A DNA stretch of 64,000 nucleotides from an uncultured Gammaproteobacteria bacterium (GCA_913060565.1 CAJXRU010000008.1:1-64000); one strand, 5' to 3'. Positions 880-60,365 are shown, counted from the stretch's first letter. A program made the numbers and translations. Notes: generated by a model not told the origin, from the sequence alone.

Positions 880-3657
880 ATGACAAATAAATTTACAAGG
901 CTGTTACATATGACTTCTTTAGTGAAACTTCTGGTGATGTTTACCGCTCTATTTCTCATGTCTACAATTTCTTTTAGTAGCCATGCTCATGCAGAGAAAG
1001 ACAAAGCAAGATACGTGTCTCCTGATGGTGTTGATGAGGGATTATGTGATAACCCCCTTCGCCCATGTAAAACGATGCTTTATGGCATATCTAGAGCGGC
1101 AAAAGGTGACAAATTACGTCTTGCAGCGGGTGACTATCATCTCGAGTCTTTAGAAGAGATATTGGCGCTTAAAGGTGCATTAGTGCCAGTTTTAGGTGGT
1201 TACAATCGATTTGATCACTATAGCAACCAAAGTCCTTCAACAAATATCTCACGGTTATTCGGTGTACCTAATGATATGACGACATTGGTTCGTCAAAAAG
1301 GTTTTACGGTGATGAGTGATGGCAAAGCAAAGTTTTCAAAGCAACGTATCAGCGAAGCGAATAAGCAGTATTTAGCAGCAAATCAGAGTCATTCTTCAGC
1401 CAAGTGTGTCGATGGCAGTGCAGCTGGTTTTTCTTGTAATAATATCGATCTTGTTGCTCACGTTGCTTTAGCTGACTTTGGTTTTAGACCCAGCGCAGGT
1501 AACGATATTTGGGGCCATGTTGATCTCAATACTAATAAAGAATATGCCATTATGGGAATCATTAATGGTGTTGCCGTATTTGACTTATCTAATCCAGAAT
1601 CACCAAGAGAAGTAGGCGCTATTTCAGGTCAAAACTCTAGCTGGCGCGATGTAAAAGTTTATCAATACTTCGATAAACAGCAAGGTATCTGGCAAGCTTA
1701 TGCATATGCCACTATCGATAGCAGCAGCGACTTCGTAACCATTATTGATTTGAATCAATTACCCAATAGCATTTCTTTAGTAACCAAGGACACCGCAGTT
1801 TCAACATCTCACAATGTTTATATTACTAACGTTGATTATACAACCAATACAGCGCTGAAGGGTGCCACACCATCTCTGCAACTTGTCGGCTCTAAAGGGG
1901 CAAAAATAAGTTCGGAATCATTTCTTAGTTATTCGTTAAGTGATCCGAAAAAATTAACTCCACTAGCCGTTGGGGCTAATGGTACAAATGGCTACACCCA
2001 CGATGGCACATCGTTAAGAATTGACGATGATCGAAAATCAACTGACTGTATTTCACAAGATAAAACTTGTGAAGTGTTCATCGATTTTAATGAAAAAGAA
2101 GTAATGATCTGGGATGCAACAACTCCCGGTAGTGAAAAAAAACTCAGTGAATTTAGCTACAACGATGTCCCCTCTTCTTCTCAATATGTCCATTCAGGAT
2201 GGTGGAGTGAAGACAAACGTTTTATTTTTGTTCACGATGAGTTCGATGAATATCGCGGTGGGTTAAACACCACCTTAAGAGTTTATGACATAACCTCATT
2301 AACCAACCCAACCCTAGCAGGCGTATGGAAAGGTGATACCAAAGCAATTGATCACAATGGATTTGTCCGCGGTAATCGCTACTACATGTCAAACTACCGC
2401 AGAGGCCTGACAATTTTAGATATTACCGACCCAGCAACACCACAAGAAGTTGGTTTTTTTGATACTTTTTCAGCCAGTGATTCAAATGGTTTTGATGGTG
2501 CATGGGGTGTATATCCGTTTTTACCATCGGGACTTATCTTAGTTAGTGACATTAATGGTGGCCTATTCATAATGCGAGACAACACGCGAAACGTGTCTCA
2601 AGGAACCCTGTCATTTACGCAAGATGCTATTCTTACAGCGCCTAATACGCCAGTTAATATCGAGATTACGCGACAAACAGGAAGCTCAGATAGTATAAGT
2701 GTCGGTTGGGAAATATTGCCAGGAAGTGCAATTCCAGAACAAGATTATACTGATAATTCAGGTATTATCACTTGGGAAGATGGCAATAGTGATAATAAAA
2801 CCATCACGATTAACATCAATGACAATACTGATATTAATGAATCCAAAGAACAGTTTTTCGTGCGTTTATTTAACCCACAAAATGGCGCAACGTTGTCATC
2901 TCCTCATTATATGACAGTTAATATTGATGGTAAGAAAATTCCAGGTGCTATTGGTTTTGAGAAAAATGCAATTGCACTCAACGAGCAAAGCGGCGAAACA
3001 ACCATTGAGGTATTTCGTAATGGCGGTTCAGATGGCGAATTAAGCGTTACTTACACCACGTCTCCTACCTCAGCGACTAGCGATGAAGATTTTCAATCGT
3101 TAGATGGCACATTAACATGGCAAGATGGTGATAACTCACCTAAAGCACTCTCCTTAAATATTCTTAATGACGATAATAGCGAGAGTGACGAAAGTTTTAA
3201 TCTAACGCTACTTGCAATTGGCGACACTCAATTAGCTGAGAATTCTGTACTTGCAATTACCATTAGAGATGAAGATTCCAATACAGCCCCTGAAATCACA
3301 ATTAAAGAGAACTTTGAAGTCAACACAAGCCAAACAGCACAATTAACGAGTTCAGCAACAGATGTTGAAAGTGACGAGTTAACCTATCTGTGGACTCAAA
3401 CCAGCGGTCCTAATGTTTCTATAAACAACAACACGTTAATGAACGCTAGTTTTGTTGCACCGCCACAAGCTGCGACGTTAGAATTTAAGGTTTCTGTGTC
3501 TGATATACGAGGGGCAGTAAGTGAAAAAACGGTAACGGTATCAGTGAAAGCGACCATTCAGCCAGAGCCACCTAAGTCATCTTCAGGGGGGCATATCGGA
3601 ATTTTACTACTGATATTCTTATCTGTTGTAGGATATAGAAAAACAGTAAACCGTTAA
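880..3657 (+). CDS. Secreted choice-of-anchor B family protein with Calx-beta domains
   Basis: A 925-residue exported protein. Residues 1 to about 38 form a signal peptide ending SSHAHA. A short segment with the pattern YVSPDG...C..PLRPC...GD...AAGDY resembles the start of right-handed beta-helix proteins. Residues about 190-575 carry LVIVD-type beta-propeller repeats (for example RGLTILDITDPATPQEVGFF), typical of the choice-of-anchor B family. Two Calx-beta-like repeats follow (about 575-800), then a PKD/REJ-like domain with YLWTQTSGPNVS. The tail SSSGGHIGILLLIF...GYRK looks like a GlyGly-CTERM sorting signal, which in other bacteria is processed by rhombosortase after type II export. The ATG at 880 has TAAGG 5 bases upstream. 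Function is unknown. It starts 44 bp from the divergent MbnP gene, so the two may be co-regulated. Confidence 0.82.
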   Translation: MTNKFTRLLHMTSLVKLLVMFTALFLMSTISFSSHAHAEKDKARYVSPDGVDEGLCDNPLRPCKTMLYGISRAAKGDKLRLAAGDYHLESLEEILALKGALVPVLGGYNRFDHYSNQSPSTNISRLFGVPNDMTTLVRQKGFTVMSDGKAKFSKQRISEANKQYLAANQSHSSAKCVDGSAAGFSCNNIDLVAHVALADFGFRPSAGNDIWGHVDLNTNKEYAIMGIINGVAVFDLSNPESPREVGAISGQNSSWRDVKVYQYFDKQQGIWQAYAYATIDSSSDFVTIIDLNQLPNSISLVTKDTAVSTSHNVYITNVDYTTNTALKGATPSLQLVGSKGAKISSESFLSYSLSDPKKLTPLAVGANGTNGYTHDGTSLRIDDDRKSTDCISQDKTCEVFIDFNEKEVMIWDATTPGSEKKLSEFSYNDVPSSSQYVHSGWWSEDKRFIFVHDEFDEYRGGLNTTLRVYDITSLTNPTLAGVWKGDTKAIDHNGFVRGNRYYMSNYRRGLTILDITDPATPQEVGFFDTFSASDSNGFDGAWGVYPFLPSGLILVSDINGGLFIMRDNTRNVSQGTLSFTQDAILTAPNTPVNIEITRQTGSSDSISVGWEILPGSAIPEQDYTDNSGIITWEDGNSDNKTITININDNTDINESKEQFFVRLFNPQNGATLSSPHYMTVNIDGKKIPGAIGFEKNAIALNEQSGETTIEVFRNGGSDGELSVTYTTSPTSATSDEDFQSLDGTLTWQDGDNSPKALSLNILNDDNSESDESFNLTLLAIGDTQLAENSVLAITIRDEDSNTAPEITIKENFEVNTSQTAQLTSSATDVESDELTYLWTQTSGPNVSINNNTLMNASFVAPPQAATLEFKVSVSDIRGAVSEKTVTVSVKATIQPEPPKSSSGGHIGILLLIFLSVVGYRKTVNR

Positions 3658-50090: not shown

Positions 50091-50197
50091 CATCAATATC
50101 TCTTGATGAAAATGTTGGCGTACACTGGCGCCTTGTCTGTATGACGACTTTTATACCTTTCCTGTTTTCCTTTGATGTTCCTTTTACATAGGATTTG

Positions 50198-50213
50198 TTA
50201 TGTTATAACATAA
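50198..50213. promoter_or_regulatory. Perfect 16-base palindrome upstream of a receptor gene
   Basis: TTATGTTA followed directly by TAACATAA, centred 66 bases before the ATG at 50271. The core TGTTATAACA resembles overlapping halves of a Zur-type site, but spacing differs from the odd Zur boxes at 58854-58898. It is a candidate operator, perhaps for the adjacent LytTR regulator. Confidence 0.5.
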
Positions 50214-50270
50214 TGGTGTTGCAAACGCTGCACTATTAATTTGTCTTAGAATCGCCTCAGGAAATAGATA

Positions 50271-52295
50271 ATGAAAAGAGTTTTACTGTCGTTTTATGCT
50301 GTAGCTTTGACAGCAATCTTTTGCCTTTCAAGCCAAGCTAGTAACAAGCTTTTTCATGAATTTTCGCAACGGTTCTTTGATGATTACGCCGTTCAAACAG
50401 CACTTGATATGGTTAATGTTATTCCGGGATTTCAAGCTGATTTTGGCGAATCAGTTCGTGGACTATCCGGTGGTGGCGGCAACATTCTTATTGATGGAAA
50501 AAGGCCATCGGTAAAGTCAGGAGATATCAGTGATATTCTGAGCAATATACCAGCGCAAGATGTGGCCAAGATTGAATTAATTGTTGGTAGTTCAGGTTCC
50601 GGCGATGCGGCTGAAAAGAGTAATGTAATTAATATTATTCGTGCAAAATCAGCGTCGAGTTTACGAATCGAAGGAACAGAAAATTATGTCGACGAAAGCC
50701 GTGTTCAGCCCAAGTTACTCGTCAATTATAGTGGCCATTGGAACCAATGGCGCTTCCAAGTTGATAGCCTTTATAACACTGAAAAAATACCAACGTTGGC
50801 AACGGTGGATACATTCGATGCTACAGATTTCGGTGTTGATAGATACGTTCAATCTCAAGTATCAGATCTTGATGAATACACCTTAACGACCAATGTGTCT
50901 CGTCAATATGATAAATCAGAGTTAGCTATTTACAATAAATTGAAATGGAGTCGTTATCAGCCACTCACTAAGCGGCGTAAGAATTTACAGCAATTGCATT
51001 ATTTTCTTAATGACCGTGATAGTGCATATATCATGGGAGAACTAGGCATTGATTATGACGTTGAACTGAGCAATCAGTGGCGCAGTCGATGGCAAGGTAT
51101 TTTTCTTGTTAATCATTGGGATGTAGAGCGTTTAACCCTCGACGACATTGTGTCTGACATTGGCAGTCATCAACGCCGATATGATTATGTATTTGATCGC
51201 AATAAAACCGAGACTATTTTAAAAAGTACTTGGCGTAATAGCGCTTTGTTGTTTAATCCAGAGTTTGGCGTTGAAGTAGCGCATAATAAAAGCAAGTTTA
51301 CGACTGATTACAGCAAAGTTGAGCACGGCGTTCGAGAGCCCATTACTTTAGCTGCTGCTAACGTAATGGTCGAAGAATTGCGCGGTGATGTGTTTGTAAG
51401 AGGCTTACATAAGCTTTCATCCCAATTTTCGTTGAATTTTGCTATGGCCGCTGAATATTCTAAGTTGTCAGTTTCGGGCGGCGCGTCGAATCAGCAAAAT
51501 TATGTCTTTGCAAAACCGAGTGTTGCTTTGGTTTATTCTTCTCCTAATCGCTGGACGTGGCAAACACAAATTGCGCGTAGTGTTGGGCAGTTAAACTTCA
51601 AGTTATTCGCGGCACAGTCCAATCAGGTAGATAATAGAAATACCGCAGGAAACCCGTCAATAAAGCCGGATACAAAAGTTCGATTAACTAGCCAAATTAA
51701 TTATTCATTCTCAAGTAAAGGGGCAATTAAGCTCGAAATATTTCGAGATTGGCGTAAAGATGTGTTGGAGCAAATAGTATTGCCATCTGGTGACATTGGT
51801 ATTGGAAATAGTGGTGATGCTAGCGTTGTAGGCTTATCTTCGCAATTGACATTGCCAATAGATTACTTGTTGCCGAAGGGATTGCTATCGATTGATGCGC
51901 AATTTACCGATGGTGACTATAGAGACCTATCTACCGGGGTTTCTCGTCAATTGACGGCGACTAAACAACCAGATGTGAATGTAAGTATTCGGCAAGATAA
52001 TACGTGGTATGGTTTGTCTTGGGGAGCCACCTATACCTTACAAACTACAACTGATCATTTTTATATTAGCGAATATAATCAAGTTGCTGAAGATGGGATA
52101 TGGGCGGTTTATATTGAAAAAGAAATGATGAGTAACTGGCGATTAAGATTAGATGCTAATACATTGGGTCGGGCGTTAAATCAGAGTACCCGCTATTTTT
52201 ATCCTCAACATCGAGCGCAAGAAGTGTCACATTGGCAGCGTAGATCGATCCAAAATCCTTGGCGGTTGGCATTGTCGCTTTCTGTGGTTATCTAG
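50271..52295 (+). CDS. TonB-dependent-receptor-like outer membrane protein
   Basis: A 674-residue exported protein (signal MKRVLLSFYAVALTAIFCLSSQAS). A plug-like domain lies at about 45-125: LDMVNVIPGFQADFGESVRGLSGGGGNILIDGKRPS, then DILSNIPAQDVAKIELIVGSSGS and VINIIR. A beta-barrel of alternating aromatic and polar strands follows and ends with a hydrophobic terminal strand (WRLALSLSVVI). No clear TonB box was seen at the mature N-terminus. CAGGAAA lies upstream of the ATG. Substrate unknown; a palindrome lies in its promoter region. Confidence 0.82.
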   Translation: MKRVLLSFYAVALTAIFCLSSQASNKLFHEFSQRFFDDYAVQTALDMVNVIPGFQADFGESVRGLSGGGGNILIDGKRPSVKSGDISDILSNIPAQDVAKIELIVGSSGSGDAAEKSNVINIIRAKSASSLRIEGTENYVDESRVQPKLLVNYSGHWNQWRFQVDSLYNTEKIPTLATVDTFDATDFGVDRYVQSQVSDLDEYTLTTNVSRQYDKSELAIYNKLKWSRYQPLTKRRKNLQQLHYFLNDRDSAYIMGELGIDYDVELSNQWRSRWQGIFLVNHWDVERLTLDDIVSDIGSHQRRYDYVFDRNKTETILKSTWRNSALLFNPEFGVEVAHNKSKFTTDYSKVEHGVREPITLAAANVMVEELRGDVFVRGLHKLSSQFSLNFAMAAEYSKLSVSGGASNQQNYVFAKPSVALVYSSPNRWTWQTQIARSVGQLNFKLFAAQSNQVDNRNTAGNPSIKPDTKVRLTSQINYSFSSKGAIKLEIFRDWRKDVLEQIVLPSGDIGIGNSGDASVVGLSSQLTLPIDYLLPKGLLSIDAQFTDGDYRDLSTGVSRQLTATKQPDVNVSIRQDNTWYGLSWGATYTLQTTTDHFYISEYNQVAEDGIWAVYIEKEMMSNWRLRLDANTLGRALNQSTRYFYPQHRAQEVSHWQRRSIQNPWRLALSLSVVI

Positions 52296-52419: not shown

Positions 52420-54972
52420 ATGGTGGGGCGGTCGTCGGTCAAACTTATGAAAGACAGTGCTTTAGACAATGTTGTCGAGCGCAGAGTTGTCACGTGTAGC
52501 AAAGAAACGACGTTGCGAGAAGCAACGAAGCTGATGCATCAACGACACTGCAGTTCGATCATTATTACCCAAGAAAACATTCCTATTGGTATATGGACAG
52601 AAGCCGATGCATTAAAGGTTAACATCCACCAATCAAGTATATTTGACTGCGAAATTTCGCGGTTTATGTCAACGCGCATCCACACTATTAAGATTGAGAT
52701 GTCACTGAACGATGCAACCTTAGAGCTCAAGCGTAATAACGTTAGACATTTAGTGGTTGTAGCGGCGGATAATCAACTTGTTGGCATCCTTTCCCAAAGT
52801 GATATTGTCATTCATCAAGATGCAACATTGTTTTTGAGTATGACGCAGGTGCAAACAGTGTTGCCTGAGCATACTCAATTGCATTTCGACATGAGCGGGT
52901 CGTTAATTGAAGCTATTCGGCACATGGGCACTCATCAATGTGATGCGCTTGTGATCGTTGAGAATACAATACCCATTGGTTTATTAACGGAACGCGATGT
53001 TGTGCGGCTGATGGCGCTAAATCAGCTAAACCTTCCATTAATTGATGCTATTAGTAAGCCTCTTATCACAGTGCCCAAAGGCATGAGTTTACTGGCCATT
53101 CGTTCATTTATGGAAAAACGCCATATTCGACATTTAGGTGTCGATGATGACGATGGTTCATTGCTTGGTATCATTTCATTTTCTGACATTCTTAATCGTA
53201 TTGAGCAAAGCTATGTCTCCCGTTTACGTAGTGCGTTAGCAAGCAGCGAAGCGTCGTTAAAAGAGAAAGAGTTTAATCTGCATATGGCGCATGCACTTAT
53301 TGAAGCGTCAGATGATGGCATCATGGTGGCAGATGAAAATGCGATCATTCAGTCGGTAAATCCTGCCTTTAGTATTCTTACAGGTTACACGGAAGAAGAA
53401 GCCGTTGGTCAGCGAGCCAATCTTTTAAGCTCCGGTCAGCATGATAAGAGTTTTTATGACGAGATGTGGGAAACTATTGATCGACAAGGGCGATGGCAAG
53501 GAGAGATTTGGAATCGCCGTAAAAATGGCGAAGTGTATCCGGAATGGTTAACCATCACGCGTATTAAAGAACCGGTAAATCAAACGGTGCTTTATGCTGG
53601 TATTTTTAATGACATTACTGAGCGCAAAAACTCAGAAACGATGATCGAGCACCTTGCTTATTATGATCCATTAACCAAGCTTCCAAATCGCCAACTATTT
53701 TACGATCGTCTTGATGCCGCTATTCTACAAGCTAATGCACATCATACTCAGTTGGCAGTGCTGTTTGTCGATTTAGATCACTTCAAGCGAATTAACGATT
53801 CTCTAGGTCATTCAGTTGGCGATAAAGTGCTGTGTGAAGTCGCCGATTTATTTGCTGAGTGTTTATCGGAGGTTGATACCATTGCCCGTATTGGTGGTGA
53901 TGAATTAGTGGTACTGCTCAATGATGTTCAAGAGCAAGCTGATGTATATCGAGCGGCACAGCGAATTGTTGATAGCCTCAAAAAGCCGTTAGCCATTGAT
54001 GGTCGTGAGCTTGTGATGACCACTAGCGTTGGCTGTGCTATCTATCCGCAAGATGGTGATAGTCGTGAAGAGCTGTTAAAGCATGCAGACAGCGCAATGT
54101 ATCGTGCTAAAGAAGAAGGCCGTAATAGATTCTGTTTGTTTTCAGCACAAATGAACGAACAGTCACAACGTCAACTGGCGATGGAGTCACGTTTACGTCA
54201 AGCATTAAAAAATGATGAATTTAACTTAGTTTATCAACCAAAGGTTAATGCGCAGACTTATGATATTGAGTCAGTGGAGGCGTTAATTCGATGGGACGAT
54301 CCTATCAATGGCAGTGTGCCTCCTAGCGTGTTTATTCCGCTGGCTGAAGAGCTCGGTTTAATTGAAGATATCGGTCATTGGGTGTTAATTGAAGCCATGC
54401 GTCAAGGTAAAGCATGGCAAGAAGAGCATCGTTTATCGATGCGGGTGTCAGTGAATGTTTCTGCTCGTCAATTGATTACCGAATCCTTAGTTAAGCAAAT
54501 TCAAGAAGGTCTTGATAACACAGGCTTCTCAGCGAGTTTACTTGATATTGAAATTACCGAAACCAGTGCCCTCAATAGCATTGAAACCATGATTAACTGT
54601 TTAACAGCGATTCGAGCAATGGGGGCAACGGTATCAATGGATGATTTTGGTACTGGGTATTCAAGTTTGAGTATGTTGACTAAGATGCCACTAGATTTTC
54701 TTAAAATTGATCGCAGTTTTATGGAAGGCATTCCCGGCAATATTGGTAATGAAGAGCTGATATCAACGATTGTGGTGATGGCGCATAACTTGAATTTACG
54801 TGTTGTCGCAGAAGGCGTTGAAACCTTAGAGCAGTTGCAATTTTTACAAGATTTAGCTTGCGAATACATTCAGGGATATTATTTTAGTAAACCAGTTGAT
54901 GCCAATACGATTGTTAAGCTTATTCATCAAGGCGTAGCCCCTAGCAATGAGCTAGGGACTGAGCTTACTTAA
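52420..54972 (+). CDS. CBS-PAS-GGDEF-EAL signalling protein
   Basis: An 850-residue cytoplasmic protein with no membrane segment. Four CBS motifs (about 20-265) such as VRHLVVVAADNQLVGILSQSDIV, a PAS domain with PAC (about 290-410; IMVADENAIIQSVNPAFSILTGYT), a GGDEF domain (about 420-580) with RIGGDELVVLL, and an EAL domain (about 600-845) with VEALIRWDDP, DDFGTGYSS, KIDRSF, VAEGVETLE and QGYYFSKP. It may make or break cyclic di-GMP; the GGDEL signature departs from GGDEF, so cyclase activity is uncertain while the EAL residues look intact. An ATG at 52447 is an alternative start. Confidence 0.93.
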   Translation: MVGRSSVKLMKDSALDNVVERRVVTCSKETTLREATKLMHQRHCSSIIITQENIPIGIWTEADALKVNIHQSSIFDCEISRFMSTRIHTIKIEMSLNDATLELKRNNVRHLVVVAADNQLVGILSQSDIVIHQDATLFLSMTQVQTVLPEHTQLHFDMSGSLIEAIRHMGTHQCDALVIVENTIPIGLLTERDVVRLMALNQLNLPLIDAISKPLITVPKGMSLLAIRSFMEKRHIRHLGVDDDDGSLLGIISFSDILNRIEQSYVSRLRSALASSEASLKEKEFNLHMAHALIEASDDGIMVADENAIIQSVNPAFSILTGYTEEEAVGQRANLLSSGQHDKSFYDEMWETIDRQGRWQGEIWNRRKNGEVYPEWLTITRIKEPVNQTVLYAGIFNDITERKNSETMIEHLAYYDPLTKLPNRQLFYDRLDAAILQANAHHTQLAVLFVDLDHFKRINDSLGHSVGDKVLCEVADLFAECLSEVDTIARIGGDELVVLLNDVQEQADVYRAAQRIVDSLKKPLAIDGRELVMTTSVGCAIYPQDGDSREELLKHADSAMYRAKEEGRNRFCLFSAQMNEQSQRQLAMESRLRQALKNDEFNLVYQPKVNAQTYDIESVEALIRWDDPINGSVPPSVFIPLAEELGLIEDIGHWVLIEAMRQGKAWQEEHRLSMRVSVNVSARQLITESLVKQIQEGLDNTGFSASLLDIEITETSALNSIETMINCLTAIRAMGATVSMDDFGTGYSSLSMLTKMPLDFLKIDRSFMEGIPGNIGNEELISTIVVMAHNLNLRVVAEGVETLEQLQFLQDLACEYIQGYYFSKPVDANTIVKLIHQGVAPSNELGTELT

Positions 54973-56345
54973 TGAGCGTGCTCTTCTTCGTTTTTAATAC
55001 CTAACCAACTGATATTAGCTGGTGTGAAATCTAAACTAAGTGCAGTTGTGATATCGCCATCGGCTAAATCCACCGCCACAATAGTATTGGCTAATGGATC
55101 GCTAATATAAGCTGTGTCAGCGTGTTGTGACATAACTAAGCTAAAGCTTTGTCCATCAGGCATTGTTGATACATCTTGCTGCGTAAAATCAACACGTGAA
55201 GCGAATTCCCACTCGGTTTCACCGTCATGGTCATGAGATTCTAGTAAGGTTAAATAACCTTGATTGTCTAGAATAACAAAGACGTCACCATCAACTGAAA
55301 AGCCGTAAGACACTGGGGCTGCATCAGTCTGCGGTTGCCAATCGATTTCACTCATTGCGCCATTAACGGCGTCGACAGTCACTAATAGTGGTGTTGTATC
55401 ACGTGCAGATGCGACACCAATAAGTGCATTGTGGCTATGGTGCCCATAAAGGCTGCCAACACGGCGCGAATCGAAGTTATCTAAATTGGCTATTTTGCTC
55501 ACATCAAAATCATGGCCGTCGTCTTTGGCCAAAAATACGCCGTCACCACAACCAAAAGCAACGAAGTTTTCACTTTGCGCCGCGCCATGCAGGTTTGGAC
55601 AAGTTGTATCGAAAATAACATCTTGCTCGTACTCATCGCCATGTTTGTGATAAACCGCCACTTGGTCTGGCAAAATTTTCGCTGCTGATGTGCTGGTGGC
55701 ATCATCACGTCGCACTGTGGTTAAAATGAAATCGCCGCGAGGCTCTGCTACGCCGTGCATATTCATATCGAATGTAATCACTTCACTGTCTGTTTTAGCT
55801 GCAGTGATGTTTTCGTCAGTGAGTAAATTGACAGAAGCATTAGTGCTGGTATCGGCATTACCATCGTTAAAAATAGCCATCACACCTTCGTGTTTAACGA
55901 CGTGAGTAGGCTGGCTGCTATCAATATGAAAATCGATTGTTGCAGGTGCTTGTTCATAATCATGCAAATGCGCGACGTGATCTTCGCGCCATAAACCACC
56001 ATCAATAAATCCAGTGTGGCCGTTCTCACGATTGGTAATGACTAGGTAACGGTAGCCGGCGGAAGCAGTGATTCTACTGCCAGCGTAGGTCGTTGAAAAC
56101 TGGCCAACTAGTTCACTATCGTCGAGATCAAATACTGATATTTGATCGCTATCAGGTGCGCTAATTGCCAATCGACCCAAACTATCGATGGTAATGTCGC
56201 CGCCGTTGCCGTGATTATGACCGTCATCTGGTGCTGGTTGTTCAGACTCTTTTTCATTGATGGTTGTTTTTGCGTCGCCACAACCTGTTAGCCAAAGGGT
56301 GCTGCATAGCGTTGCTATTAGGCTAAGTTTACATGTGTTTTTCAT
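54969..56345 (-). CDS. AztD-like zinc metallochaperone lipoprotein
   Basis: A 458-residue predicted lipoprotein (signal ending LWLTGC). A His-rich linker DDGHNHGNGGD follows the anchor, then a beta-propeller-like body with HVAHLHDYEQAPATIDFHID, VVKHEGVMAIFNDGN, NMHGVAEPRGDF and GHHSHNALIG. This fits the periplasmic AztD family, which hands zinc to binding proteins. It is downstream of the ZnuD-like receptor (36-bp gap) on the same strand, and Zur-box-like sites lie at the head of that operon. Its C-terminus ends NEEEHAH. Its stop shares a TTAA with the convergent gene. Confidence 0.8.
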   Translation of the reverse strand: MKNTCKLSLIATLCSTLWLTGCGDAKTTINEKESEQPAPDDGHNHGNGGDITIDSLGRLAISAPDSDQISVFDLDDSELVGQFSTTYAGSRITASAGYRYLVITNRENGHTGFIDGGLWREDHVAHLHDYEQAPATIDFHIDSSQPTHVVKHEGVMAIFNDGNADTSTNASVNLLTDENITAAKTDSEVITFDMNMHGVAEPRGDFILTTVRRDDATSTSAAKILPDQVAVYHKHGDEYEQDVIFDTTCPNLHGAAQSENFVAFGCGDGVFLAKDDGHDFDVSKIANLDNFDSRRVGSLYGHHSHNALIGVASARDTTPLLVTVDAVNGAMSEIDWQPQTDAAPVSYGFSVDGDVFVILDNQGYLTLLESHDHDGETEWEFASRVDFTQQDVSTMPDGQSFSLVMSQHADTAYISDPLANTIVAVDLADGDITTALSLDFTPANISWLGIKNEEEHAH

Positions 56346-56381
56346 CGTTAGTTCCTTGTTTAAATTTGTTCGCTATCAAAA

Positions 56382-58832
56382 TTAGAAATAAGCACGGAAG
56401 CCAACAGCTAGGCTTCGTCCTTGTCGCGGGGCAATGTCTTTCACAAAAGAGCTGTGCACTTTGGCGTATTCGTCGGTGAGGTTTTTTGCGGTGGCGTAAA
56501 ATGTAATATCGTGATCCAAGAGCGGTAACTGATAGCTAACACCAAGATCTACCAAGGTATAACCGTTGGTTGCCGTTTCTAAATTGGCCACCTTGTCTTG
56601 TTCTTGATAGCGCGTAATATCAAGATGGGCACTAAAGCTCTCAAGTTGATATCTCAAGTTTGTGCCAAAGCGCAGCGGTGGAGTGCGCGGTAAATCACCG
56701 CCATTTTTCAAGCGTGCTCTGACGTAATCAGCGAAGAATGATGAAGACAATTGTTCGTTAATATTCCAATTAACTTGCGCTTCAAAACCGTGTAATGTCG
56801 CATCTTGTGATTTAAAGATGTAAACAGGGAGTTCACCTGCGCTATGGCCGCCGTGATCATGACCATGATGGTCATGTCCGTCACTACCAAACAAGCCTGT
56901 AGCAACTTGGTAATAGTAGTTGTCTACTTGGTTATAAAAGGCGTTAACAATAACGGCAACATCGCCCTGGGTTTTTCTAAAGCTGATATCAATGTTATTG
57001 GCTGTTTCTAAATCGATGCTTTGGTTGTTTAATGCAACTTCATTGTGATCGTTAAGGGAAAATAATGCGCCGACTTCATAACTTCGCGTACCAATGTGTG
57101 GACCAAATGATAGTAATTCTGATGCTGAAGGGGCGCGTTGTGAACGAGATATCGAGGCACCAACGTTATAGCCTTCAGTAAAATCCCACACTACACCTAG
57201 TGATGTAGTTATCGGCGTGAAGGTTTGCTCTACTGCGAATACACGTGTTAATTCAGTACTTTCTTCTTCGTGACCATGGTCATGAATCTCTGCTTCACCT
57301 GCTTCATCGTGACCATGAGCTTCCAAATGTGGTAGTCGAACATTTTTTGCATCTAACGTTACACGCTCTACTCGCGCGCCAAATTGAACAAGCACATCGT
57401 CAAAGTGACGCTCTTGCATCATGGCAAGCGCCATCATTTTTTGGGTAGATGGTGGCGTAAATGCTTCGCTGCCAATCGCCTCTATGTCGGTGTCTTTTGC
57501 GTGAAAACTTAGGCCGCCGCGCCAATCCATAATTGGGTGATGGAGTAAATCAACTTTCAGCTCTGTAGTATCATTGGCAAAGGTGGTGCCTACTGCGCCC
57601 GCTTCAATTTCTGCGTGTTTGTAATCGGTGTAAGAGGCCTTGAAATTAACAGCACTAAATAAACTGTCGTCAAAGTTATATTCACCGATTAACTGGTAGC
57701 GATTTTGCTCTAAATCAGCAAAAACTTGTGGCTCTGACTTTTCGTCATGATCGTGTTCATCTGCATGAGTTTCTTCTTCACCATGCGTATGACCAGGAAT
57801 GCCGTATTCGCGGTTTAATTTACCAGCAGAAAGGCCGACGTAACCTTGGTCGAATAGGTAGCTGCCACCTAACGTAAAACTATTTGATTCTTCTGCGCTG
57901 TTTTCAACTTTATTGTGATGTTCGTTACTTGCGGCTGACTTTGGCGGCTCAGGGATACGATAATCATCTGATTCACGCCAAAAACCATCAGCATAAAATG
58001 CAAATGAATCGGTGCCATTTTTGACATTAAAAGCAGCTAATTTTTGGTTGTTAACTGAATTTTTTTCGAGAATAAACTCACCAAATGGCGTGTTGTTAGT
58101 TGGCACGCGCTCATCGACTACATTAACGACGCCACCGATTGCACCGCTGCCGAAAAAGAGCGTTGCTGGACCACGTAATACTTCAATTTGCGTGGCAGTT
58201 GATGCTTCTGTTGCCACGCTATGATCAGGGCCAACACGTGATACATCACTAACATCTAATCCATTTTGAGTAATCATTACTCGTGGCCCGCTTAAACCAC
58301 GGATAATTGGTGTGCTTGCAACGCCAGCGTGAAAATTGGTGTGTACGCCTACTTGCTTCTCTAATGTATCACCCAACGTAGAGGCTTGCTGTTGACGAAG
58401 CTTTTCTCCTGACAGTACAGATACAGGAATACTCGCTTCCATGACTGATGCATGAAATGGCGTTGCTTTGACATCAATGACTTCAATCGCTGAACGCGCT
58501 AACGAGATTGCTACATTGGCACCATCATTGAGGGCAACGTGTTTATTAATATGTGCATACCCTGGCGCTGTGATGTGTAGTTCCAGTGCTTTATCTGGTG
58601 CATTGGCAAAATGAAAATCGCCATTTTTATTGGTAGTTACTTGCTGCTTACTATCAAGAATACGGACTTTAGCGCCGCTAATTTTATTGCCTTGGTTGTC
58701 GATTATCGTGCCAGAAACGGTTTGTGCCATGCTGCCAGTACTGAACATTAAGCCAATGAGCAGACTTACTTTAGTAAGCACGTGTTTGGTGGCTCTATGT
58801 TTAATAGACGTGTGTGTGGCGGAAATATTCAC
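56382..58832 (-). CDS. znuD: ZnuD-like TonB-dependent zinc receptor
   Basis: An 816-residue outer-membrane receptor. A signal peptide (ending STGSMAQ) precedes a carboxypeptidase-regulatory-like domain (VSGTIIDNQGNKISGAKVRIL), a plug (IPVSVLSGEKLRQQQASTLGDTLEKQVGVHTNF, PIIRGLSGPRVMITQNGLD, FFGSGAIGGVVNV) and a barrel. Three His/Asp/Glu-rich loops stand out: HTHGEEETHADEHDHDEKSE (about 348), HLEAHGHDEAGEAEIHDHGHEE (about 500) and GHDHHGHDHGGHS (about 645), likely zinc-capture sites. Transcription starts next to Zur-box-like palindromes. It leads an operon with the AztD-like gene. Confidence 0.9.
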   Translation of the reverse strand: MNISATHTSIKHRATKHVLTKVSLLIGLMFSTGSMAQTVSGTIIDNQGNKISGAKVRILDSKQQVTTNKNGDFHFANAPDKALELHITAPGYAHINKHVALNDGANVAISLARSAIEVIDVKATPFHASVMEASIPVSVLSGEKLRQQQASTLGDTLEKQVGVHTNFHAGVASTPIIRGLSGPRVMITQNGLDVSDVSRVGPDHSVATEASTATQIEVLRGPATLFFGSGAIGGVVNVVDERVPTNNTPFGEFILEKNSVNNQKLAAFNVKNGTDSFAFYADGFWRESDDYRIPEPPKSAASNEHHNKVENSAEESNSFTLGGSYLFDQGYVGLSAGKLNREYGIPGHTHGEEETHADEHDHDEKSEPQVFADLEQNRYQLIGEYNFDDSLFSAVNFKASYTDYKHAEIEAGAVGTTFANDTTELKVDLLHHPIMDWRGGLSFHAKDTDIEAIGSEAFTPPSTQKMMALAMMQERHFDDVLVQFGARVERVTLDAKNVRLPHLEAHGHDEAGEAEIHDHGHEEESTELTRVFAVEQTFTPITTSLGVVWDFTEGYNVGASISRSQRAPSASELLSFGPHIGTRSYEVGALFSLNDHNEVALNNQSIDLETANNIDISFRKTQGDVAVIVNAFYNQVDNYYYQVATGLFGSDGHDHHGHDHGGHSAGELPVYIFKSQDATLHGFEAQVNWNINEQLSSSFFADYVRARLKNGGDLPRTPPLRFGTNLRYQLESFSAHLDITRYQEQDKVANLETATNGYTLVDLGVSYQLPLLDHDITFYATAKNLTDEYAKVHSSFVKDIAPRQGRSLAVGFRAYF

Positions 58833-58853
58833 AAAGACTCCTTTAAATAAAAT

Positions 58854-58871
58854 GTAATGTTATAATGTAAC
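58854..58871. promoter_or_regulatory. Candidate Zur box 1
   Basis: GTAATGTTATAATGTAAC contains GTTATAATGTAAC, a 13-base palindrome with one mismatch. It lies 22 bases from the znuD-like ATG. Together with the site centred at 58891 it sits in the 108-base divergent gap, so one repressor could control both sides. Confidence 0.7.
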
Positions 58872-58883
58872 TTTGGTTGGTAA

Positions 58884-58898
58884 TGTTATATTATAACA
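58884..58898. promoter_or_regulatory. Candidate Zur box 2
   Basis: TGTTATA-T-TATAACA is a perfect 15-base palindrome with a one-base centre. It matches the central part of the gammaproteobacterial Zur consensus (ATGTTATA-N-TATAACAT). Its centre is 26 bases from that of box 1, and the merC ATG is 43 bases downstream. Zur identity is inferred from pattern and from the genes on both sides. Confidence 0.8.
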
Positions 58899-58940
58899 AT
58901 ATGTAATTCAACAGACGGTTTGATCTTCAGAGGAATATTT

Positions 58941-59342
58941 ATGGAACACGCAATAATCAAGCAACAATCAATCAAAGATAAAATGGGTATCTTTTTCTCG
59001 GGAGTGTGTATTGCACATTGCTTAGTCATGCCATTTTTGGCCATTGTGTTGGGGTCAAATGTGTTAGTCAGTGCATTAACTGAGGAGTGGTTTCACACGT
59101 TGTTGCTATTGCCTATTTTCGCCATGCTAATTTTTAGTGTGCCGCAAGTTTGGTTAGTGACACGTAATCCGTGGTTGTTGGTGTTAGCGATTAGCGGTGT
59201 TGCATTATTATCATGTTCACGCATGTTTCACGGCATTGGTGAAACGTTCTTGACCGTTGCAGGTTCAGGTTTAGTCATCGCTGCTCATCATTTGAGTCTA
59301 AAACTTCGTCAGTTATTTCTTGAACAAACTCAAGAGTATTAA
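58941..59342 (+). CDS. MerC-domain membrane protein
   Basis: A 133-residue protein of about four membrane segments with the MerC-type cysteine motif in FFSGVCIAHCLVMPFLAI. The ATG at 58941 is chosen for an AGAGGA site about 7 bases upstream; a TTG at 58920 would overlap the presumed promoter. It is 12 bp upstream of a COG0523 GTPase and opposite the ZnuD-like gene. MerC proteins carry mercury, but the zinc context suggests a zinc or other transition-metal role here. That is inferred. Confidence 0.82.
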   Translation: MEHAIIKQQSIKDKMGIFFSGVCIAHCLVMPFLAIVLGSNVLVSALTEEWFHTLLLLPIFAMLIFSVPQVWLVTRNPWLLVLAISGVALLSCSRMFHGIGETFLTVAGSGLVIAAHHLSLKLRQLFLEQTQEY

Positions 59343-59354
59343 TGGGTCGGATCG

Positions 59355-60365
59355 ATGAAAAGTAATGAACAAATAAGTGCGGTGCCGACTAATGTTATTA
59401 CCGGCGCTCTGGGCGTTGGCAAAACAACATTTATTGAGCGCCTTTTGCGTGAAAAACCGGAGCATGAACGATGGGCAGTTCTAGTTAATGAGTTTGGTGA
59501 AGTTGGAATCGATGGTGGACTGTTAAACGATTCAAATCACCAAGGGGTGTTTATTGCCGAAGTTCCTGGCGGCTGTATGTGTTGTACAGCTGGGTTGAGT
59601 ATGCAAATTACTTTGAATCGCTTGATAGCTCGCGCTAAGCCGCATCGTTTATTGATAGAGCCAACAGGTCTTGGTCATCCGGCAGAAGTGTTAGCAACAT
59701 TGCAAGCACCGCATTATCGAGATGTTATTGATGTAAAAGCGACTTTAACACTGATTGATGCAAGGCGAATTAATGATTCTCTATGGTTAGATAATGCCAG
59801 TTACCGCGAGCAGATGCAGGTAGCGGATGCGTATATTTGCAGTAAAGCAGACTTATATACTGGCATTGAAAACACATTAATTCAGCAATACGTCCATACA
59901 GAAGAACTCAATGAAAAGCCTTTGTTAATGAAGTTTGATAGTGAACAAGTGAAGGCGCTGCTGGAAATGCCATGCGCTTACCAAGCGGTTGATTGTCCGG
60001 TGCCTGCAATTAGTCTACGAAAGAAATCATTAAGTGTCAGTGAGCAATTAGCTACCCAAGATTTCGTGCGTTTGAATAATTCTGGCGATGGTTTCACATC
60101 TTTTGGTTGGGCTTTAGCACCTCATAAACGATTTGATTTACATCGAGTGCTTAACGTATTAAGCGAAGTGAGTATTAATCGTTTGAAAGCCATTTTAATC
60201 ACTTATCAAGGAATATTTGCGTTTAATATTGTTGGTAAAGAAATGGACTATCAAGAAATTGATGAGAGTGGTGATTCACGTTTAGAGTTTATTAGTGATG
60301 ACAACACAGCTGCTAAACAGTTGGCTCAGCAGCTGGAGATTAGTTTATTCGCTTTGGTTGAATGA
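59355..60365 (+). CDS. COG0523 (CobW/G3E) GTPase, putative zinc chaperone
   Basis: A 336-residue G3E-family GTPase. The P-loop is GALGVGKTTF, the metal-binding motif CxCC is in GGCMCCTAG, and EPTGLGHPAEVL and SKAD (guanine specificity) follow. The C-terminal CobW_C domain begins near residue 240. This is a zinc-type member by context: it follows a MerC-type gene in an operon under Zur-box-like control. Zinc-limited metal allocation is the likely job; specificity is not proven by sequence. Confidence 0.88.
   Translation: MKSNEQISAVPTNVITGALGVGKTTFIERLLREKPEHERWAVLVNEFGEVGIDGGLLNDSNHQGVFIAEVPGGCMCCTAGLSMQITLNRLIARAKPHRLLIEPTGLGHPAEVLATLQAPHYRDVIDVKATLTLIDARRINDSLWLDNASYREQMQVADAYICSKADLYTGIENTLIQQYVHTEELNEKPLLMKFDSEQVKALLEMPCAYQAVDCPVPAISLRKKSLSVSEQLATQDFVRLNNSGDGFTSFGWALAPHKRFDLHRVLNVLSEVSINRLKAILITYQGIFAFNIVGKEMDYQEIDESGDSRLEFISDDNTAAKQLAQQLEISLFALVE

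Follow-up and report, generated by a model that had tools for sequence, protein, structure and literature searches.

A probable Zur-controlled zinc locus with a MerC-domain protein as candidate inner-membrane carrier in an uncultured gammaproteobacterium

What is a MerC-domain protein, whose family name speaks of mercury, doing among genes that appear to serve zinc? The question is raised by a 64,000-nucleotide stretch of DNA from an uncultured marine Gammaproteobacteria bacterium (GCA_913060565.1, CAJXRU010000008.1:1-64000; this whole stretch is hereafter the window). Positions 54969-60365 hold four genes, encoding an AztD-like beta-propeller protein, a ZnuD-like TonB-dependent receptor, a MerC-domain membrane protein (the window MerC) and a COG0523 guanosine triphosphatase (GTPase). 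A preliminary description had placed these genes in two divergent pairs around two Zur-box-like palindromes and had suggested, cautiously, that MerC may carry zinc rather than mercury. In this study, we have followed up both points in the window and in the host genome (4.35 Mb in 215 contigs, with a completeness score of 100%). The coordinates of the open reading frames (ORFs), the gaps between them and the family profiles confirm the arrangement, and it is highly probable that the genes form a Zur-controlled zinc locus, to which Zur would bind and which would respond to zinc. Our proposal as a whole, a Zur-repressed zinc-acquisition locus that reaches from the outer membrane to the cytoplasm with MerC as the inner-membrane carrier, is one that we favour slightly; for the single step that MerC itself would carry zinc inwards, we see the balance as even. 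We consider MerC to be the novel element of an otherwise recognisable zinc locus.

The case for Zur starts with the boxes. Within the window, there are three matches to the pattern GTAATGTTATANTNTAAC when up to two mismatches are allowed, all of them in the control region between the divergent operons, and none of 100 shuffles reached this number (mean 0.16). A looser 17-base palindrome alone is not significant (three in the window, a number reached by 8 of 100 shuffles). Across the 4.35 Mb of the genome, an 18-base pattern with zero mismatches has five sites, a count that was not blind, as the pattern was slightly loosened after a first match list had been inspected; two of these sites are at the locus and one each precedes zigA, rpmE2 and an ABC-2/TonB operon. 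Both zigA and rpmE2 (type B ribosomal protein L31) are textbook Zur targets. The Zur reading is self-consistent, because a closely matching box also stands before these two genes and the ABC/TonB operon. Direct reading of the genome, which here and below (box consensus, ZrgA, ZrgB, MerT, MerP and rival ORFs) covered 2.46 Mb or 57% of it, ranked the two locus boxes first and second in a scan with a palindromic 22-base consensus, itself modelled in part on these boxes. A candidate regulator is also present: the best NCBIfam match of a Fur-family protein (C60, L050) is by far Zur (NF008646), at 154.5 bits and just under the cutoff of 167. Together, this Zur-like protein, the same box at rpmE2 and zigA, and the occurrence of MerC relatives near Zur-like boxes and zinc genes in other families of the order (see below), lines that are largely independent of one another, support the Zur and zinc assignment of the preliminary description.

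Zur-like boxes were seen at other places as well. The exact box on contig 112 is followed by an operon for an ABC-2 ATPase, two DUF3526 permeases and a TonB receptor (L043, 4707-9500, plus strand). On contig 175, Zur-like boxes lie between zigA and a divergent gene for a small membrane protein of the DUF6653 family (L041, 3058-3546, minus strand). A second ZnuD-like receptor with His-rich stretches (L046, 4055-6229, plus strand, contig 5; 360 bits against NF038289) is preceded at 26 bp by a weaker Zur-like box, and on contig 86 a weaker site with two mismatches (L044, 3061-3078) overlaps the mechanically called start of a TonB receptor (966-3080, minus strand). Within the window, a short palindrome of Zur/Fur type (50197-50214) is found about 57 bp upstream of an ORF for a predicted outer-membrane receptor-like protein (50271-52295).

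The window MerC is a clear member of its Pfam family (PF03203, 72.4 bits with a cutoff of 27.6, covering 1-107 of 108 profile positions), and its candidate metal ligands are C23, H26, C27, H52, E101 and H116. Among 53 non-redundant members of the window-type group, C23 and C27 are kept in 53/53, H26 and H116 in 52/53, E101 in 51/53 and H52 in 50/53. We compared them with four mer-operon MerC proteins, namely the Tn21 protein of R100 and three more with merR beside them, in two cases together with merA. In all four, C23, H26 and H52 are replaced by Ser, Gly and Ile/Val, and where the second half could be aligned (one of the four in the group alignment, and Tn21 separately), E101 and H116 are absent, with Thr and Ser in their places. 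On the group profiles, mer-operon MerC scores 20-30 bits versus 58-182 bits for the window-type group, a gap that is partly by construction since the group was sampled with its own profiles. A search of 72,556 plasmids with the window MerC (E 0.01) matched no mer-operon MerC. None of merR, merT, merP and merA is found at the locus, and neither MerT, MerP nor a close MerA was found in the 57% of the genome that was read. On general grounds of coordination chemistry, the Cys/His/Glu set would be more suitable for zinc than a pair of Cys residues alone. An AlphaFold2 model of the protein has four long helices (mean predicted local distance difference test, pLDDT, of 82), and the positive charges suggest that both termini lie on the cytoplasmic side. 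With the termini inside, H52, E49 and E101 would therefore be at the periplasmic face, and C23, H26, C27 and H116 deeper in the protein.

Furthermore, relatives of the window MerC recur in the company of zinc genes. Of the 53 non-redundant MerC loci, 23 have a Zur-like box in the 250 bp upstream, with boxes counted only if no more than 1 of 100 shuffles reaches their level, compared with an expectation of about 0.8; the best of these (21/22 bases) stands 50 bp upstream of merC in Glaciecola pallidula. By manual count, a COG0523 gene adjoins MerC in 10/53 loci, and homologues of the window GTPase with 38-45% identity adjoin MerC in other families. Other neighbours are zigA, zur itself, zrgA (ZrgA, PF10986) and DUF1826, and some merC genes follow zur, zrgA or DUF1826. 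Closer to the host, all four genes recur in unchanged order in the sister metagenome-assembled genome MedPE-C10 (L082), together with both boxes and at 91-96% identity. Two members of the genus keep the order of receptor, MerC and GTPase, with boxes, at loci (L021 and L022) that stop short of the position of the AztD-like gene. Beyond the genus the four-gene set is looser, yet MerC still adjoins zinc genes.

Two other settings were noted among the relatives. On a Catenovulum plasmid (L112, 6010-9298), MerC with a strong Zur-like box (20/22) adjoins DUF3299 and ABC genes like those for ZrgE, ZrgC and ZrgB. At three MerC loci (L067, L074 and L080), the upstream palindromes read like GATATGATAT...ATCATATC, and these may be a Zur-box variant belonging to another family.

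At E<=1e-3, the host genome yielded no ZnuA (PF01297), no ABC-3 permease (ZnuB) and no ZIP, with search controls for ZnuA and ZnuB positive in 11 and 13 of 14 reference genomes; the 57% of the genome that was read gave neither ZrgA nor ZrgB. The lack of ZnuA and ZnuB, the lack of mer context, the different ligands and the recurrence beside COG0523 all favour the earlier suggestion of a zinc rather than mercury carrier, which we keep in its cautious form. Six genomes of the genus have MerC, and ZnuA is missing from five of them; of the three genus genomes with ZnuA, two are without MerC, and two genomes have neither. Over 395 genomes of the order, ZnuA is absent in 46 of the 67 genomes with MerC versus 67 of the 328 without it (odds ratio 8.5; Fisher p 5e-14, a value that ignores descent and was obtained from genome lists transcribed by hand from search tables).

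The partners of MerC are encoded in two divergent operons with one common promoter region, and the ORF calls in the window leave gaps of 36, 108 and 12 bp (Table 1). The GTPase matches Pfam cobW (PF02492) with 139 bits (cutoff 20.7) and has the P-loop GxxxxGKT (GALGVGKT) at residue 17 and the CxCC motif (CMCC) at 74-77, as is characteristic of COG0523 proteins of the G3E type; a second COG0523 protein, ZigA, is encoded elsewhere in the genome. The receptor is identified as TonB-dependent by Pfam Plug (PF07715) and TonB_dep_Rec (PF00593), both above cutoff. Its best NCBIfam match is ZnuD (NF038289), and we call it only ZnuD-like because its 357 bits are below the curated cutoff of 950; in a search of the PDB it matched the ZnuD structure 4rdr (E 8e-59), and it has His-rich runs at residues 348, 504, 517 and 651. 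Likewise, the label AztD-like is used because the 103 bits against NCBIfam AztD (NF038015) are below the curated cutoff of 400. This protein matched AztD 6cmk in the PDB (E 1e-8), and a single weak alignment places three site-1 histidines at H148, H197 and H253; in site 2, the same weak alignment has H123 and H126 kept, H128 in place of Asp104, and the C-terminal H458. One small correction to the preliminary description is that, given its lipobox, this protein is probably a lipoprotein rather than a freely soluble protein.

Table 1. Features of the locus and its control region (positions in the window)
Feature	Position	Strand	Details
AztD-like beta-propeller protein	54969-56345	-	458 aa; lipobox LTGC (residues 19-22), probably a lipoprotein
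ZnuD-like TonB-dependent receptor	56382-58832	-	816 aa, GTG start; N-terminal carboxypeptidase-regulatory-like domain; His/Asp/Glu-rich stretches
Divergent control region	58833-58940		108 bp
Zur-box-like palindrome 1	58854-58876		GTAATGTTATAATGTAACTTTGG, 18/22 consensus bases
Zur-box-like palindrome 2	58880-58902		GTAATGTTATATTATAACAATAT, 20/22 consensus bases; 38 bp 5' of merC
MerC-domain membrane protein	58941-59342	+	133 aa, ATG start; mechanical ORF begins at TTG 58920
COG0523 (CobW/ZNG1-type) G3E GTPase	59355-60365	+	336 aa

Based on our results, we propose the following course of events. When zinc is present, Zur would sit on both boxes and silence both operons; when zinc is low, it would leave the boxes (58854-58902) and both operons would be expressed. 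The ZnuD-like receptor would then move zinc across the outer membrane, energised by TonB, the AztD-like lipoprotein would hold it in the periplasm, and the four-helix MerC protein, probably acting as facilitator or relay, would carry Zn(II) over the inner membrane. Within MerC, the metal could pass from residues close to the periplasmic side (H52, E49 and E101) to C23, H26 and C27 in helix 1 and H116 in helix 4. The COG0523 GTPase would finally take zinc from MerC and deliver it to client proteins. A hand-over from the AztD-like protein to MerC is proposed because an AztC-type binding protein was not found here, and by analogy it would be a natural idea.

Several observations weigh against MerC as the zinc carrier. 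Fold searches with the MerC model gave generic four-helix bundles only, below a meaningful level, and a profile search of solved structures returned chance matches only. The association between MerC and ZnuA is mainly one between families, and because of this we do not take it as proof. By reading of the listings, a single family (f7) contributes most of it: all f7 genomes among those listed have MerC and nearly all are without ZnuA, so that few independent events would lie behind the signal. Other zinc routes exist, because 45 of 113 ZnuA-less genomes are without both MerC and a strong ZIP hit, and 21 of the 395 genomes carry MerC and ZnuA together. On a Tolypothrix plasmid, a MerC of the same residue type (L111, 5633-6393) lies directly downstream of an ArsR/SmtB regulator, with a metal P-type ATPase opposite; this setting resembles detoxification, and MerC relatives are not uniformly Zur-linked. 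Finally, the host itself encodes a 572-aa ZIP-like/ArsP_1 fusion (L222, 5551-7269, plus strand, at about 45551-47269 of contig 9) with a Zur-like box (17/22) 43 bp upstream. The idea of MerC as the only inner-membrane candidate was dropped once this ORF emerged, and because it exists we do not claim MerC as the sole importer candidate. The C-terminal half of the fusion is an ArsP_1 permease whose NCBIfam relatives are Cu/Zn efflux transporters; its N-terminal half has no Zip profile hit and has, by eye, the ZIP-like motifs HILPE, HSLTDG and AHRLPVG. Several members of the genus have ORFs of similar length (about 580 aa) with weak ZIP hits, and these ORFs probably belong to the same family. As the main and serious competitor of MerC, the fusion could act in import or in export, or its box could be due to chance, as other 17/22 matches occur. 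As a separate observation, ORFs of about 580 aa that resemble the fusion are probably present in many genomes of the order.

With these points in view, a substantial minority probability goes to an explanation in which the locus is indeed a Zur-controlled zinc locus and MerC is an accessory that anchors the GTPase at the membrane, acts as a zinc sensor or buffer, or assists a different transporter, while import is left to the fusion, the contig-112 ABC-2 system or DUF6653. The box and ZIP-like motifs of the fusion, the weak ZIP hits in the genus, the exact box before the ABC-2 operon, the boxes between DUF6653 and zigA, and the coexistence of MerC and ZnuA in 21 genomes would all fit such a division of labour. 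However, ArsP_1 is the sole Pfam hit of the fusion above cutoff and its relatives point to efflux, ABC-2 systems are usually exporters, and all three candidates lie outside the uptake cluster, unlike MerC. As a general importer, DUF6653 was rejected on its distribution, since it occurs in 14 of 395 genomes and is missing from three that are without ZnuA (G003, G007 and G008). An import of another metal by MerC, for example cobalt or manganese in place of zinc during starvation, is unlikely. The family of COG0523-type GTPases serves several metals, the conserved Cys/His/Glu set need not be restricted to zinc, and a partial substitution of cobalt for zinc is described for zinc-starved Cupriavidus (PMC11340326); against this, the linked receptor and periplasmic protein resemble zinc proteins, and the AztD zinc ligands are mostly kept in the weak alignment. 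It is very improbable that MerC is a mercury-resistance transporter that came to this site by chance. The Pfam name and the fold family are all that speaks for it, whereas the low scores of mer-operon MerC on the group profile speak against it, as do the boxes and neighbours of zinc type that many relatives have. We rejected this role on gene context (the locus is free of mer genes, and the part of the genome read gave neither MerT, MerP nor a close MerA) and on ligand residues. We give equally little credence to the palindromes being chance, or sites of another Fur-family regulator such as Fur: boxes of this family are AT-rich and alike, and the 17-base palindrome is not rare in the window, but the same 18-base pattern stands at rpmE2 and zigA and has only five zero-mismatch sites in the genome.

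A zinc-carrying MerC would have consequences beyond this locus. More tentatively, and with somewhat less than even confidence, we suggest that the CxxHC MerC subfamily with conserved His/Glu may be a widespread group of Zur-regulated inner-membrane zinc importers which, without ATP-binding or binding-protein subunits and together with COG0523, would replace ZnuABC in several marine gammaproteobacterial lineages. Many genomes hold MerC or mercury-resistance labels without a mercury context, and a large number of annotations would be in error if zinc is what the CxxHC group transports. Bacteria that apparently have no high-affinity zinc importer would gain a candidate, and COG0523 GTPases would gain a natural membrane partner, with a carrier-to-chaperone hand-over that is testable in a four-gene system. 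We found no literature linking MerC to Zur or zinc uptake in a search that was weak on subscription journals, supplementary tables and regulon databases, where an earlier mention is quite possible. The main text of the study of Zur-linked COG0523 genes and their neighbours (Haas et al., 2009; PMC2770081) does not name MerC, the string "merc" occurring only within the name Merchant.

How does the locus compare with known systems? With mer-operon MerC (Tn21, R100; PF03203), the window MerC has in common the Pfam family, a small four-helix inner-membrane build and a Cys in helix 1; it differs in its identity, which is only 19%, and in its setting, since the mer copies adjoin merR and often merT or merA. 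With ZnuABC and ZrgABCDE, the locus would share the expected task of cytoplasmic zinc entry, and MerC homologues adjoin zrgA in several genomes; the difference lies in the components, as ZnuA and ZnuB were not found in the genome, nor ZrgA and ZrgB in the part read. Like ZnuD of Neisseria, the TonB receptor carries His-rich stretches, and its match to the ZnuD structure is strong (see above), but it scores under the NCBIfam ZnuD cutoff and has an additional N-terminal domain. In AztABCD, the AztD propeller passes zinc to AztC, and CobW-type genes are reported as neighbours of AztD (PMC6689063). Here too, an AztD-like propeller, in which the weak alignment has the site-1 histidines kept, is accompanied by a CobW-type GTPase in a zinc context; in contrast, the host genome is without an AztC/ZnuA-type binding protein, and the propeller scores under the AztD cutoff, is a probable lipoprotein and has His aligned in place of Asp104 in site 2. 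Finally, the G3E GTPase with its CxCC motif adjoins a Zur-like box, as in the Zur-regulated COG0523 proteins described by Haas et al. (2009; PMC2770081), and what sets it apart from these is that it is paired with MerC.

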